From an uncultured Bacteroidota bacterium (GTDB lineage Bacteria; Bacteroidota; Bacteroidia; Chitinophagales; Chitinophagaceae): a stretch of DNA of 42,432 nucleotides. This document shows, one piece after another, positions 35,455-41,414 of this stretch; position 1 is the stretch's first letter, and each line of letters opens with the position of its first letter. The stretch spans positions 1-42,432 of the forward strand of contig CAIYKV010000003.1 in the NCBI GenBank assembly GCA_903926855.1, written 5' to 3'. A program made the position numbers and the translations under genes. The notes beneath the pieces were generated by a model that worked only from the letters and a program-made list of their open reading frames with translations, did no database searches and was not told where the DNA came from.

Positions 35455-37293
35455 CTATTTGAGGTTCAATTGAATCTGCAACTCCTCAAACTGCTTATCA
35501 TCAATCGTACTCGGCGCATCCAGCATTACATCCCTTCCGCTATTATTTTTAGGGAAAGCAATAAAATCGCGGATACTTTCACTACCACCCAGTATTGAGC
35601 AAAGTCTGTCAAACCCAAATGCGATACCACCATGCGGAGGCGCACCATATTCAAAAGCTCCCAATAAGAACCCGAATTTATGTAAAGCCTCTTCCTCACT
35701 CATACCCAAAGCCGCAAACATTTTCTCCTGTAGTTCTCTTTGATAGATACGAATAGAACCACCCCCAATTTCATTTCCATTCAATACCATATCATAGGCA
35801 TTTGCCTTAATATTGGCATAAGGATGTTCCAGGTATTTATCTGCCTGTTCAATCAAAGGATTATTGTTGATCATTACTGCAATATGATCAGGTTTCGGAG
35901 AAGTAAACGGATGGTGACGGGCCACCCAACGGTTATCATCCTCTGTATATTCAAATAATGGGAAATCCAATACCCATAATAATTTGAACTCATTCTCTTT
36001 TCTCAGTCCCAGTCTCTTACCCATTTCCAAACGTAACTCACTGGCTGCTTTACGGGTTCTTTCTTCGCGTCCGGCTAATATGAATACAAGGTCGCCTGCC
36101 TGCGCATCTGCCTTATCCGCAATCCCCTTTAATTTGTCTTCGGTAAAAAATTTGTCCACGCTGCTTTTGTAGCTACCATCCGCACTGCATTTGATATACA
36201 CCATTCCCTGCATACCAATCTGCGGACGTTTTACCCATTCTGTTAATTCATCAATCTGTTTGCGAGTATATTCACTGCAACCTGAAACAGCAATCGCCAC
36301 AACTGTTTCTGCATTATCAAATACAGAAAATCCACAATCGCCTATACCGATCAATGAACTTTGTAAATGCGCTATTTTATTCGGAAAACTGTGTAAAGGA
36401 AATTTCAGGTTGGCCAGTTTCATTCCAAAACGGATATCGGGTTTGTCATTTCCATACTGCCACATGGCTTCTTCCCAACTCATTCTTTCTATATACTCAG
36501 TATAGTCAATCCCCTTTACATCTTTAAAAATCCGTTTGATCAGGTTCTCAAACATCAACAGAATATCTTCCTGTTCTACAAACGACATCTCGCAATCAAT
36601 CTGGGTAAATTCCGGCTGTCTGTCAGCACGCAGATCCTCATCCCGAAAACATTTTACAATCTGGTAATAGCGATCATAGCCACTTACCATCAATAATTGT
36701 TTAAAAGTTTGGGGAGATTGTGGTAGTGCATAAAACTGACCAGCATTCATTCTGGAAGGCACTACAAAATCCCTCGCACCTTCCGGTGTTGATTTAATCA
36801 GGAAAGGCGTTTCAATATCCATGAACTGGTTCTCATGTAAATAATTTCTGGCAGACCTGTTTACAGCATATCGTAATTCCAGGTTTTTCTTTACCGCATT
36901 TCTGCGCAGATCCAGGAAACGATATTTCATTCTCAAATCATCACCTCCATCGGTATCGTCCTGTATGGTAAAAGGAGGGACTGCAGATTTATTGAGAATC
37001 TTATAAGAACTAACTGCGATTTCAATATCGCCGGTGCTGATATTCGGGTTTTTATTACTTCTTTCTGAAACAATTCCCGTGGCCTGAATGACAAATTCCC
37101 TGCCCAATGGAGCTGCGTCCAGTTCAGCATTCAGGTTTTCTCCAAATAATAATTGGGTAATGCCATAACGGTCCCTCAAGTCAACAAATGTAATAGCCCC
37201 GAATTTACGGATGGTTTGTACCCATCCCGCTAAGGTTACTTGTTTTGTAATGTCACCAATTTTCAATTCTCCACAGGTGTGCGAACGATACAT
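35455..37293 (-). CDS. aspS: aspartyl-tRNA synthetase
   Basis: [26 protein letters not shown] start; [46 protein letters not shown] motifs. Confidence 0.98.
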
Positions 37294-37456
37294 ACGATTT
37301 CTGATTGTAAATGTGAATCTGGAACACCCTTCATCAGTTTCTGGATGGTTTATGTTCCGGCGGCAAATATAAATGAATTGGCCCAAGCGGCTTTATTTGG
37401 ATCATTTTCGCATGGAAAAGGGCGAAAAACTCTGAATTTGGTTCATATTTGTATCT

Positions 37457-38599
37457 ATGACGAATCAGCCGGTTTCTAAAAAAGCCAACCGAATAGCGGT
37501 TGCCTGCTTTTTTTTCATTGCCGGAATCAGTTTTGCCAGCTGGGCAAGCCGTATCCCGGATATCAAAGCGAAACTACATTTAAGTGATGCAGCTTTGGGG
37601 GGCGTTTTATTTGCATTACCAGTGGGTTCTATGATCAGTTTACCCCTTTCAGGCTGGTTAGTAGCAAAATATGGCAGTAAACGCATGGTTACCATTGCTG
37701 TTACCTGTTATCCGCTCATTCTGATACTAATTGGCACTACCATAAGTATCTGGCAATTGGTTTCCGTATTATTAGTATTTGGATTATTTGGCAACCTCTG
37801 TAATATATCGGTAAATACGCAGGCTATAGGCGTGCAGGTATCATACGGTCGTTCTATCATGGCCACATTTCACGGCATTTGGAGTATGGCGGGTTTTACG
37901 GGTGCAGCTATTGGTACATTCCTGGTATCCAAAGACATCTCACCTGTATATCATTTTGCGATTATCTGGCTTGCCTGTCTTATTTTATTATTATCTGTTC
38001 AACGGTTTGCACTCGCAAAAGATCATGGACATGCGAGTCAACAGGTTTTTGTTAGACCAGATAATTCCTTAATGAAACTTGGACTGATCGCATTCAGCTG
38101 CATGGTATGCGAAGGAACCATGTTCGATTGGAGTGGGGTTTATTTCCAAAAAGTAGTCGTTGCGCCCAAAGAACTGATAACTCTTGGCTATGCTGCTTTT
38201 ATGGCAACCATGGCAAGTGGTAGGTTTATCGGAGACTTTATAGTTACCAGGTTCGGTAGCCGTAAAGTATTGGAAGGAAGTGGTATACTTATCACAACCG
38301 GATTATTGATATCTGTACTGTTTCCAACCATTATACTAGCCACAATCGGTTTTTTACTGGTTGGTTTTGGCGTATCCTCAGTAATCCCACTTGTTTATAG
38401 TGCAGCAGGAAAATCCAAAACCATGTCGCCCGGAATGGCCCTTGCAGCCGTATCCACTATCGGTTTTCTCGGATTCCTACTAGGCCCCCCATTAATCGGC
38501 CTGATCGCCCAGGCCTTCAGCCTCCGCTGGTCATTTTCCCTTATAGCGGTTTTAGGATTTGGGACTAGTTTGTTAGCGGCGAGAGTAAAAACTTTTTAA
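37457..38599 (+). CDS. MFS transporter
   Basis: 12-TM pattern; FASWASRIPDIKAKLHLSDAALGGVLFALPVGSM, GIWSMAGFTGAAIG. Confidence 0.9.
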   Translation: MTNQPVSKKANRIAVACFFFIAGISFASWASRIPDIKAKLHLSDAALGGVLFALPVGSMISLPLSGWLVAKYGSKRMVTIAVTCYPLILILIGTTISIWQLVSVLLVFGLFGNLCNISVNTQAIGVQVSYGRSIMATFHGIWSMAGFTGAAIGTFLVSKDISPVYHFAIIWLACLILLLSVQRFALAKDHGHASQQVFVRPDNSLMKLGLIAFSCMVCEGTMFDWSGVYFQKVVVAPKELITLGYAAFMATMASGRFIGDFIVTRFGSRKVLEGSGILITTGLLISVLFPTIILATIGFLLVGFGVSSVIPLVYSAAGKSKTMSPGMALAAVSTIGFLGFLLGPPLIGLIAQAFSLRWSFSLIAVLGFGTSLLAARVKTF

Positions 38600-38732
38600 T
38601 TTGAAAATTTGAAAATGTGGCAATTTGAAAATGAAAAAATGGGGTATGATTTCTATATTAGTATCACTTCATTTCTAATATGAAACACTGACAAAAAATT
38701 TTCAAATTTTCAAATTGCCACATTTTCAAATT
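38598..38732. repeat. REPIN-like inverted pair of TTTGAAAA-type repeat elements
   Basis: AATTTGAAAATGTGGCAATTTGAAAAT (38606-38632) and its exact reverse complement (38706-38732), 73-nt spacer containing an inner ATATTAG/CTAATAT inverted repeat. Confidence 0.85.
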
Positions 38733-39861
38733 AAATAATTACATGTGGCACAAACCTGCTCACATTATCAGTAATTAAACTATCTGATTCTCTAATACCC
38801 ATGCCTGCCGGTTGTTGCCCGATTACCCAGCTGCCGATTACAGGATAATGATTAGAGTAATTGGGAAGGGTAAATAGATCCTGGTAGATATATCCTTCTG
38901 CTCCATAACTTCCTTCTGTTTTCTGGAGAGAAATATTTTTCATGACCATATCAATATTGGCACCTTCTCGGGAGAGGATGGGTTTCTTGACATAGTCGGT
39001 TAATTTACCTTCTTCAAAATACGCAGGTAATAGATAAGGACAATCCGGGAATAATTTCCATAGTATGGGTAAGATGGCTTTATTGGATAAGATGATTTTC
39101 CAGGCAGGTTCTATCCAAAAAGCCTGGTTAACATCATTCGGAATATTTTTTCCAAAATCATCATTTACCAGCCATTCCCAGGGATAGAGTTTGAAAATAT
39201 TTTTTACAGGTTGATCTTCCAGATCAAGAAACTGGTTATTGGCCGAATCCCAACCAATATCATCTATAAACAGGAGTTTTGTTTCAAGTCCTGCCTGTAT
39301 AGCGCAATCCCGCATATACTCGGTATTGGTAAGGTCTTCCAACGTTTCTTTCAGGCAACTAAAATGAACCGCGCCTGCATGTAAGTAATTCTGTAAGTAT
39401 TTCCAATAAGCAATCAGTTTTTCATGAATACTATTGAATTGATCCTTTGTGTTATCAAAATCCTGTAACCAGAACCATTGTACAATGCCCGCTTCATATA
39501 GACTGGTAGGGGTGTCGGCGTTGAATTCCAGAAGTTTTACCTGCCCGTTTTTATAACAGAGATCAAATCGCCCATAAATAGCCGGGTGATCATTGTTCCA
39601 GCTATTTTCTATTTGTGGTATTACCCATTCAGGGATACCAAATTTGGAATACAGGTTATTATCAATTACATGCTGAACAGCCCCCAGACAAAGATCCCAG
39701 AGTTCGGCGGTGGCTTTTTCAATAAACAGAATTTCCTTCATTTCCATTTCATAATAAACAGACTCATCCCAATACGGAACGGTTGTGGTATGAAATCCAA
39801 AACCCAAAGCTTCTACTGCCGATTGCCAGTTATTCCTGGGGGCAGTGGTTATTCTTTTCAT
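38731..39861 (-). CDS. glutathionylspermidine synthase-like ATP-grasp protein (YgiC-like)
   Basis: GFHTTTVPYWDESVYYEMEM, HPAIYGRFDLCYKNGQVKLLEFNADTPTSLYEAGIVQWFWLQD, REGANIDMV, PVIGSWVIGQQPAGMGIRES. Confidence 0.92.
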   Translation of the reverse strand: MKRITTAPRNNWQSAVEALGFGFHTTTVPYWDESVYYEMEMKEILFIEKATAELWDLCLGAVQHVIDNNLYSKFGIPEWVIPQIENSWNNDHPAIYGRFDLCYKNGQVKLLEFNADTPTSLYEAGIVQWFWLQDFDNTKDQFNSIHEKLIAYWKYLQNYLHAGAVHFSCLKETLEDLTNTEYMRDCAIQAGLETKLLFIDDIGWDSANNQFLDLEDQPVKNIFKLYPWEWLVNDDFGKNIPNDVNQAFWIEPAWKIILSNKAILPILWKLFPDCPYLLPAYFEEGKLTDYVKKPILSREGANIDMVMKNISLQKTEGSYGAEGYIYQDLFTLPNYSNHYPVIGSWVIGQQPAGMGIRESDSLITDNVSRFVPHVII

Positions 39862-39911
39862 GCGATACTTTCATTAAGACATCAATTAAATAATAGGGGA
39901 ACTTAGTGTAT

Positions 39912-40256
39912 CTAACTGCTTACGCTAAAACCACTTCTTCCGAATCCGCCACGACTCACCGCCGTTTTGAATCCATTGGTACCCAGGTTTGAGAAAGCAC
40001 TGATTCCACCCGAATAGTATCCGGCTCTTTGGTAACCGCCATTATAATAATTACCATAGGGTCTGAAAGCATAGTACCAGAGAAGGGCATTACCCATGCC
40101 GCCGCCACCATAATAATGATGAACCGTTGTATATGGTGCAGTGGTATCACTTCTTAAGTGTACCTGGTTATTTTCTTCCCAATCTTTTTTCGGTGTATTA
40201 CAGGCAGCCAACGCTGCGGTGATTAATACCAGTTCAATATATTTGGATTTTTTCAT
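39912..40256 (-). CDS. small lipoprotein, Gly/Tyr-rich, C-terminal SRGGFGRSG (YgiB/DUF1190-like by position and tail motif)
   Basis: Lipobox LAAC; YYGGGGMGNALLWYY; ends TAVSRGGFGRSGFSVSS; directly upstream of the YgiC-like gene. Confidence 0.7.
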   Translation of the reverse strand: MKKSKYIELVLITAALAACNTPKKDWEENNQVHLRSDTTAPYTTVHHYYGGGGMGNALLWYYAFRPYGNYYNGGYQRAGYYSGGISAFSNLGTNGFKTAVSRGGFGRSGFSVSS

Positions 40257-40268
40257 CTGTTCTGTGTT

Positions 40269-40598
40269 TTACTTTACTGTGATAAAAATCTCATAATCTT
40301 TTTTCACATGCACATTTTTGGTATCTCCATCTGCATTTTCTGCAGTTGCATTTATTTTTCCCAGAGAGGGTAATGTATCTCTGTAAAAAATAGTTTTTAC
40401 TTCATGGTTATCAGCCCAAACTTTATGCGATGTGATTAATACATCGTGCAGACTATCCAGGTGTTCAACCTGAACAGCTGTTTCAATCGATCCTGATTTA
40501 TTGACTGTTTGTGTAATGTCTTCATTCTGCTTGTCTTCGCAGGAAAAAAGAAAAAATAAAGCGGCGGCTCCCAGTATCGCTAAAACGATAGGTTTCAT
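40269..40598 (-). CDS. hypothetical lipoprotein
   Basis: MKPIVLAILGAAALFFLFSCEDK lipobox; 13 bp upstream of the next gene. Confidence 0.75.
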   Translation of the reverse strand: MKPIVLAILGAAALFFLFSCEDKQNEDITQTVNKSGSIETAVQVEHLDSLHDVLITSHKVWADNHEVKTIFYRDTLPSLGKINATAENADGDTKNVHVKKDYEIFITVK

Positions 40599-40719
40599 GT
40601 GTATATTCATAAATAGGTAATTTCAAAATGGTTAATACGGTTCCGTTGCCGCTTATTTGCGGATGACTGAAAGATAAATATTATCGTGAATGTAATCAGA
40701 ATACCCGAAGGTAATTTCA

Positions 40720-40905
40720 GTGATCACGATTAACGGAAAATATCTTTATCTGAATGTTTACGGAACAAAAGGGTTAAAAGCCCGGTGGTTTAATATGCTG
40801 GCGAAAACGAAAGAGCAGGTAGTCGAGCAAAAGGTTCATATTACATGGGAGCGAGGCTCCATTTACTTTGATCCCATAAAGATATATCTATCGGCAGCGC
40901 ATTAA
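40720..40905 (+). CDS. possible small hypothetical protein (GTG start)
   Basis: 61-codon ORF only; no recognised motif. Confidence 0.25.
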   Translation: MITINGKYLYLNVYGTKGLKARWFNMLAKTKEQVVEQKVHITWERGSIYFDPIKIYLSAAH

Positions 40906-40997
40906 AAAGGCGAACAGGGTTAAACGGGACTTGCGGTTTCACAAGTGGTAAAAGCTATCTGATGAGCGGTAAAATCAAGAATTTTTGCGATCTTTTG

Positions 40998-41414
40998 CTA
41001 CATGGTTTCAAGTTCGTTCTTATGTAAGGGCTTCCAGTATACATAATAGAAGGCCAGAATCAGTAAACCTATGCCAAAAGGGATAATAGCCAGGTGTTTA
41101 TAGGTATAATGCGTGAACAAAGGCTTTGTATCAAAACCGGCAAATTCACTAATCATCCAATAGGAGTTGGCACTGATCCAGATGGTTATTGCAACATTGT
41201 GGCATAGTTCAGAAACAAATTGTCGGGTTCTCCAGGCTATTACAATTGAAATAATCAGTGTAGGAAAAATCATGGCAATACCCAATGGTCGCCAAACCAT
41301 ACACCAGGAGATATCCTTAAGCAACCAGAAAACAATATGTAGATTTTCCATTTTACGGTAACTAAGCGGAATGCTATAAGCCGTTTCTGAAGGGGCGGTT
41401 GGTTTTGTGGCCAT
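40998..41414 (-). CDS. hypothetical membrane protein
   Basis: 138-aa ORF with four hydrophobic segments. Confidence 0.7.
   Translation of the reverse strand: MATKPTAPSETAYSIPLSYRKMENLHIVFWLLKDISWCMVWRPLGIAMIFPTLIISIVIAWRTRQFVSELCHNVAITIWISANSYWMISEFAGFDTKPLFTHYTYKHLAIIPFGIGLLILAFYYVYWKPLHKNELETM

Follow-up and report, generated by a model that had tools for sequence, protein, structure and literature searches.

Gss-type enzymes ligate a C-terminal carboxylate, Gss itself using the Gly carboxylate of free glutathione, and amidoligases were reportedly the subject of a 2009 study by Iyer. In E. coli, two gene pairs, ygiB-ygiC next to tolC and yjfM-yjfC within the yjfIJKLMC operon, encode a tag protein followed by a ligase, and both ligases, YgiC and YjfC, have been reported to be peptide-spermidine ligases (Pederick et al. 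2023, as cited in PMC12568646 and PMC10948618). An earlier note on the locus described here had called the substrate and product of this ligase family unresolved; this is outdated in part, as to the activity, while a natural substrate is unnamed in the sources that we searched. Operons that join an ATP-grasp ligase, DUF350 and a DUF1190 lipoprotein and that are PSP-linked have been described by Ravi et al. 2024 (PMC11237479), who call DUF1190 a metal-chelating lipoprotein; its passages on these operons name the genes and mention no shared C-terminal tag. Our search of the open literature returned no paper linking RGGFG to YgiB or YgiC, its one RGGFG match being unrelated, and the portable C-terminal tag presented below appears to be undescribed there.

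We analysed the window, the whole stretch of 42,432 bases, which is one complete contig out of the 275 that make up a 3.54 Mb genome, and found that it carries a new branch of this known operon type. Three genes, all on the minus strand and separated by gaps of 12 bp and then 50 bp, encode a second lipoprotein (40269..40598, 109 aa, its ORF opening at 40610), a tag-bearing lipoprotein (39912..40256, 114 aa) and a YgiC/YjfC-type ATP-grasp ligase (38731..39861, 376 aa, signal peptide absent); the amino-acid codons of the three span 40272..40598, 39915..40256 and 38734..39861. The earlier note had placed the ligase at 38731..39861 and the second lipoprotein at 40269..40598, with a lipoprotein ending in an RGGFG tail directly upstream of the ligase on the same strand and the second lipoprotein just upstream of that one, and our re-reading of the open reading frames agrees on each point. 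The order, tag protein then ligase, is that of both E. coli pairs, and the ligase is about 40-43% identical to YgiC and YjfC; the cassette differs from these pairs in its additional beta-domain lipoprotein and in a partner that ends in Ser rather than in Gly-Gly. With the PSP-linked operons of PMC11237479, it shares the combination of a ligase, a cell-surface lipoprotein and a polyamine theme; in contrast to those operons, it is without PspA and DUF350 members, and phmmer searches of the window locus (37237-41328) with E. coli YjfJ, YjfL and YjfK returned no DUF350, DUF2491 or PspA relative.

Several features flank the cassette. A small membrane protein encoded upstream of it (41001-41414) matches no Pfam family and is kept in one locus of the same genus (L009) and in one other (L056). 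An FAD oxidoreductase (DAO) frame at 41478-42374 matches profile positions 133-351 of 353 and is probably cut by the contig end, given that the match is partial and lies so near to it. Between the ligase and a convergent MFS gene, a long unstranded inverted repeat (38606..38732, fold z -8.1) is built from TTTGAAAATGTGGCAATTTGAAAAT, a dispersed repeat with 16 occurrences in the genome at two mismatches or fewer, some of them in facing pairs, and is likely a two-way terminator from a dispersed REP/terminator element.

The earlier assignment of the ligase to the YgiC/glutathionylspermidine-synthase-like ATP-grasp family is confirmed by a full-length match to PF03738 (GSP_synth), covering positions 1-371 of 371 and scoring 490.7 bits (cut-off 29.3). 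Of the proteins with a solved structure, YgiC of E. coli resembles it most (7uk8; 355 bits, 5e-105), ahead of 7uk6 (286 bits) and Gss (140 bits), which places the ligase with the stand-alone enzymes, nearer to YgiC/YjfC than to Gss. The bifunctional glutathionylspermidine amidase/synthetase (PRK10507) was considered as an identity and rejected, the score being 182 bits against an equivalog cut-off of 882 and the amidase domain being absent; this absence also sets the window ligase apart from Gss and trypanothione synthetase, with which it shares PF03738 and six catalytic residues. R98, D100, E112, N114, K293 and R357 of the window ligase align with Gss R316, D318, E330, N332, K533 and R598, which we take to be the catalytic residues of the ATP-grasp centre. 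The peptide-spermidine ligases of Pederick et al. 2023 (PDB 7uk6-7uka) have the full-length family match and these residues in common with the window ligase, and by analogy with YgiC and YjfC its chemistry is presumably the same peptide-spermidine ligation.

The tag-bearing lipoprotein has an MKKS signal peptide, a lipobox (LAAC) whose Cys19 is invariant in the alignment made, a variable body and a C-terminus reading SRGGFGRSGFSVSS; its AlphaFold model, with a mean pLDDT of 44 and values below 50 across residues 74-114, is disordered outside the signal peptide. The C-terminal tag comprises residues 98-114 (TAVSRGGFGRSGFSVSS; 39915..39965, minus strand), the segment that we propose for docking and amidation, and within it the RGGFG core (residues 102-106; 39939..39953, minus strand) is 100% identical across 11 Chitinophagaceae-group rows. 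The statement in the earlier note that E. coli YgiB has an RGGFG-type motif near its C-terminus is correct (VTRGGFG), and YjfM, which ends in TVSRGGYGRSSSARGHWGG, carries VSRGGYG. Likeness to YgiB is confined to this end of the protein: when a profile of 18 Bacteroidota and phage homologues was compared with YgiB, only the tail aligned (14 columns, 57% identity), and partner bodies from which signal peptide and tail had been removed gave no alignment with DUF1190 bodies (hhalign probability 0.4%). DUF1190 bodies have four invariant Cys; the window lipoprotein, which is without this four-Cys body and has no PF06693 match, was rejected as a DUF1190 protein, while it does carry the [RK]GG[FLYW]G tag at its C-terminus and ends in a small residue. 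Among 52 diverse tag proteins, 15 match DUF1190 (PF06693) and the remainder match no informative Pfam family; blastp clustering of tag-protein bodies chained, apparently through low-complexity segments. The earlier remark that, the tail apart, the partners are little alike applies to the body and not quite to the N-terminus, where an MKKS-type signal-peptide start recurs and is common among tag proteins. Lipidation as an essential feature of the partner was rejected, three partners being without a lipobox Cys (L017, L020 and L022).

The second lipoprotein, which ends in KKDYEIFITVK, is predicted to form a five-stranded beta domain (pLDDT 92-97 across residues 41-110), for which a fold search against the PDB gave no match (best E 0.22). 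It is kept together with the tag lipoprotein at 21 loci in Bacteroidota and their phages (phmmer) and marks a Bacteroidota version of the cassette.

The association between tag and ligase was assessed on ligase loci drawn from the window's family and phylum, GTDB genomes, IMG/VR, and plasmid and phage records, which were dereplicated at 80% ligase identity and searched for the strict motif in the last 40 aa of ORFs. The motif was present in the upstream ORF at 61 of the 83 cellular loci, against 7 of the 2,072 other ORFs of those loci (0.3%), and at 34 of 54 IMG/VR loci, against 12 of the 1,657 other ORFs there. In a non-circular test, a tail HMM built from 15 Chitinophagaceae-type tails only was run on 3,883 ORF ends from 127 other loci. 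With E<=1 as the limit, it matched 49 of the 273 ORFs in the upstream position and 4 of the 3,610 elsewhere; all four of the latter are partner genes from phage contigs where the partner follows the ligase, and the HMM is almost error-free at finding the partner. These results bear directly on the notion that the tail is low-complexity drift at the ends of small lipoproteins, with RGGFG shared by chance. Ser/Gly-rich tails do lift the chance rate of the motif, but shuffled tails contained the strict motif in 1-1.5% of cases and the other ORFs in 0.3%, and the motif counts against these controls, together with the non-circular HMM test, refute a chance origin, to which we attach next to no probability.

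On these counts, the tag is found next to YgiC-type ligases of about ten phyla and of phages. The listed hosts belong to Bacteroidota, Ignavibacteriales, Actinomycetota, Acidobacteriota, Pseudomonadota and delta-proteobacterial lineages, and Gemmatimonadota, and also to Planctomycetota, Verrucomicrobiota (Opitutus), Nitrospirota and Hydrogenedentota. The check put forward in the earlier note, whether the gene upstream of the ligase always encodes a lipoprotein with RGGFG near its C-terminus, gave a tag of this type at the 61 dereplicated cellular loci given above; the partner is not always a lipoprotein, and the tag is not always a strict RGGFG. Several loci that fail the regular expression have the near variants RGLLG, TKGFG, VGGFG, RGGIG or RGGAG, and at others the tag gene is placed farther upstream or downstream of the ligase; at four (L074, L095, L161 and L197), no tag was found in the stretch available around the ligase. 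At 12 distant PF03738 loci in Bacteroidota (L044-L055) there was no tag, and several adjoin what reads in sequence as a DUF350-like membrane protein; this subfamily probably has a different substrate. No tag gene adjoins gss in E. coli. In Actinomadura barringtoniae, two tag-bearing ORFs lie upstream of a single ligase.

The anatomy of the tag suggests where a bond might be made. The distance from the core to the C-terminus is 7-13 residues in 88 of 95 partner proteins, and 94 of the 95 end in G, S, A or E, residues that make up 66% of inner tail positions (p 5e-16); after strong dereplication the figure is 52 of 53 (p 6e-9). Conservation is seen in the end residue and in its distance from the core, and not in the side chains of the span between them. 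As aligned here, the conserved unit is [RK]-G-G-[F/L/Y/W]-G followed by a Ser/Gly-rich stretch of 7-13 residues, the last of them small, so that the RGGFG of the earlier note captures the shared core and is too narrow as a definition. Chemistry on a C-terminal carboxylate fits this pattern because it would require a constant reach and an end residue that is small, and in the window the amidated carboxylate would be that of Ser114 (39915..39917, minus strand), proposed from the last-residue statistics. One point against amidation is that the last residue is not a single fixed amino acid. Tags ending in Glu (...GAGE, ...GGGE) occur at nine loci (L088, L092, L093, L102, L117, L075, L132, L100 and L084) of Acidobacteriota and some Bacteroidota, and may represent an alternative acceptor end.

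It is also conceivable, though we consider it unlikely, that the tag docks the ligase while the bond is formed at another site, either a side chain or a free tail-derived peptide, the protein being a RiPP-like precursor with its body as carrier. A core followed by a variable spacer recalls the logic of recognition sequence and core peptide, and the tails are Ser/Gly-rich and, in the AlphaFold model, disordered. However, a bond to a side chain sits poorly with conservation of the end and its distance rather than of the side chains between, and Gss-type enzymes ligate a C-terminal carboxylate. Moreover, the neighbours, which were viewed unsystematically, showed no regularly linked protease, with one SprT-like metallopeptidase in an Ochrobactrum phage.

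The distribution of the two genes across genomes points the same way as their adjacency. Among 200 genomes of the window's family, the lipoprotein occurs in 12, each time together with the ligase, which is itself over cut-off in 20 of the 200 (hypergeometric 2e-14, phylogeny ignored). One genome (G100) has both on different contigs, and another (G079) has two ligases and two tag lipoproteins. The tag profile had a single match in each of three genomes (G000, G005 and G089) and, in one E. coli genome, matched YjfM, YgiB and a chance frame of 14 codons, and a genome-wide tag search of the window's organism found no tag-bearing protein besides the partner. By these profile searches, there is one tag protein per ligase. 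As the same tag occurs, within about the last 20 residues, on varied bodies beside the ligase, the partner's C-terminus may be the ligase's missing natural target.

The covariation between tag and ligase adds a possible site of contact. Ligase column 192 tops the ranking of all ligase columns for covariation with the tag: it is Phe or Trp in 18 of 18 ligases with RGGLG partners and aromatic in 16 of 119 with RGGFG partners, where it is typically Leu or Ile. The pattern is found separately in Bacteroidota (aromatic in 6/6 RGGLG versus 0/22 RGGFG) and in Actinomycetota (12/12 versus 1/20). A second covarying column, 198, is P/A in RGGLG lineages, from F/Y in Bacteroidota and from A/T in Actinomycetota. 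In the window ligase these positions are L192 (39286..39288) and F198 (39268..39270), both codons on the minus strand. This amounts to 2-3 independent events, two of them on supported branches, and a sign test is not significant; with events so few, we regard the covariation, and the reciprocal size swap that it implies in a ligase pocket near 192/198, as suggestive.

Both the distribution and the covariation weigh on a further possibility, namely that the tag is an export, assembly or membrane-sorting element and that ligase and partner just share a pathway. Partners generally have an export signal, the MKKS... signal-peptide start is conserved as well, Gly/Ser-rich tails can be structural, and DUF1190 is, according to Ravi et al. 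2024 (PMC11237479), a metal-chelating lipoprotein. Against this, phages and phyla of both Gram types share the identical tag type on differing bodies, tag proteins are confined to ligase-bearing genomes in the sets scanned, and the covariation speaks against a pure sorting element. We therefore find this explanation quite improbable.

The cassette is also carried by phages, whose homologues already bear a PHROG name. In seven records of the phage collection, the tag protein lies near the ligase in six and the seventh locus lies at the record end, and the pair is found in isolated phages, T4-like ones of Aeromonas and Acinetobacter and others of Ochrobactrum, Sinorhizobium and Achromobacter. 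Six viral contigs (L140-L144 and L158), of Bacteroidota-type phages, have a three-gene cassette in the order ligase, second lipoprotein, tag lipoprotein. One of the three-gene phage contigs has rIIA/rIIB and an RNA ligase, one a portal protein and DNA polymerase, and another a homing endonuclease and a 17-tRNA array. In Achromobacter phage Motura (L248:803-3628), homospermidine synthase, tag protein and ligase are consecutive and are followed by a DUF350-like gene; homospermidine synthase also adjoins the ligase locus of viral contig L171. Read from gene content, the Motura and L171 genes are a phage polyamine-ligation module. At a further locus (L089), a spermidine synthase lies 414 bp upstream. 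In the genome of the window's organism, nspC gave a match below cut-off only, and PF01916 (deoxyhypusine/homospermidine-type) is present, split over two contigs, and is found in ligase-free relatives too.

Taken together, we think it reasonably probable that RGGFG is where the ligase docks, and that it then joins a polyamine by an amide bond to the C-terminal carboxylate of its partner, ahead of export. The suggestion in the earlier note that the tail is recognised or modified by the ligase fares best in its first half: recognition is well supported at the level of sequence, having passed every such test run, that is, cross-phylum conservation, co-occurrence including the unlinked case, absence from distant PF03738 and covariation, while for modification we infer the tail carboxylate as the acceptor. 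With a cytosolic ligase and an exported partner, the timing needs explaining. The ligase could bind the disordered end of the lipoprotein partner while this is still unexported, with a pocket near residues 192/198 taking the Phe (or Leu) of [RK]GG[FL]G. The docked tag would set the carboxylate 7-13 residues downstream into the ATP-grasp site, where that of Gly, Ser, Ala or Glu would be activated to an acyl-phosphate and then attacked by spermidine or homospermidine, much as Gss does with glutathione. The capped precursor would then be exported and lipidated to give a flexible polycation in the envelope, and this order of events, like the envelope role, is what the anatomy of the partner leads us to expect.

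More generally, a portable tag of [RK]GG[F/L]G and 7-13 residues with a small end may mark dissimilar exported proteins for C-terminal polyamine amidation, a proposal that we hold to have about an even chance. The tag names candidate substrates, in E. coli the C-terminal ends of YgiB and YjfM and in almost all other lineages one protein each, and it predicts the position of the bond and the ligase residues that would read the tag. If true, this would be a new modification, widespread among bacteria and phages, that caps envelope proteins with polycations, and phages would bring their own substrate, enzyme and even polyamine synthase. The tag would then define a new class of C-terminal protein modification, present in many phyla, tied to envelope stress operons and borne by phages.
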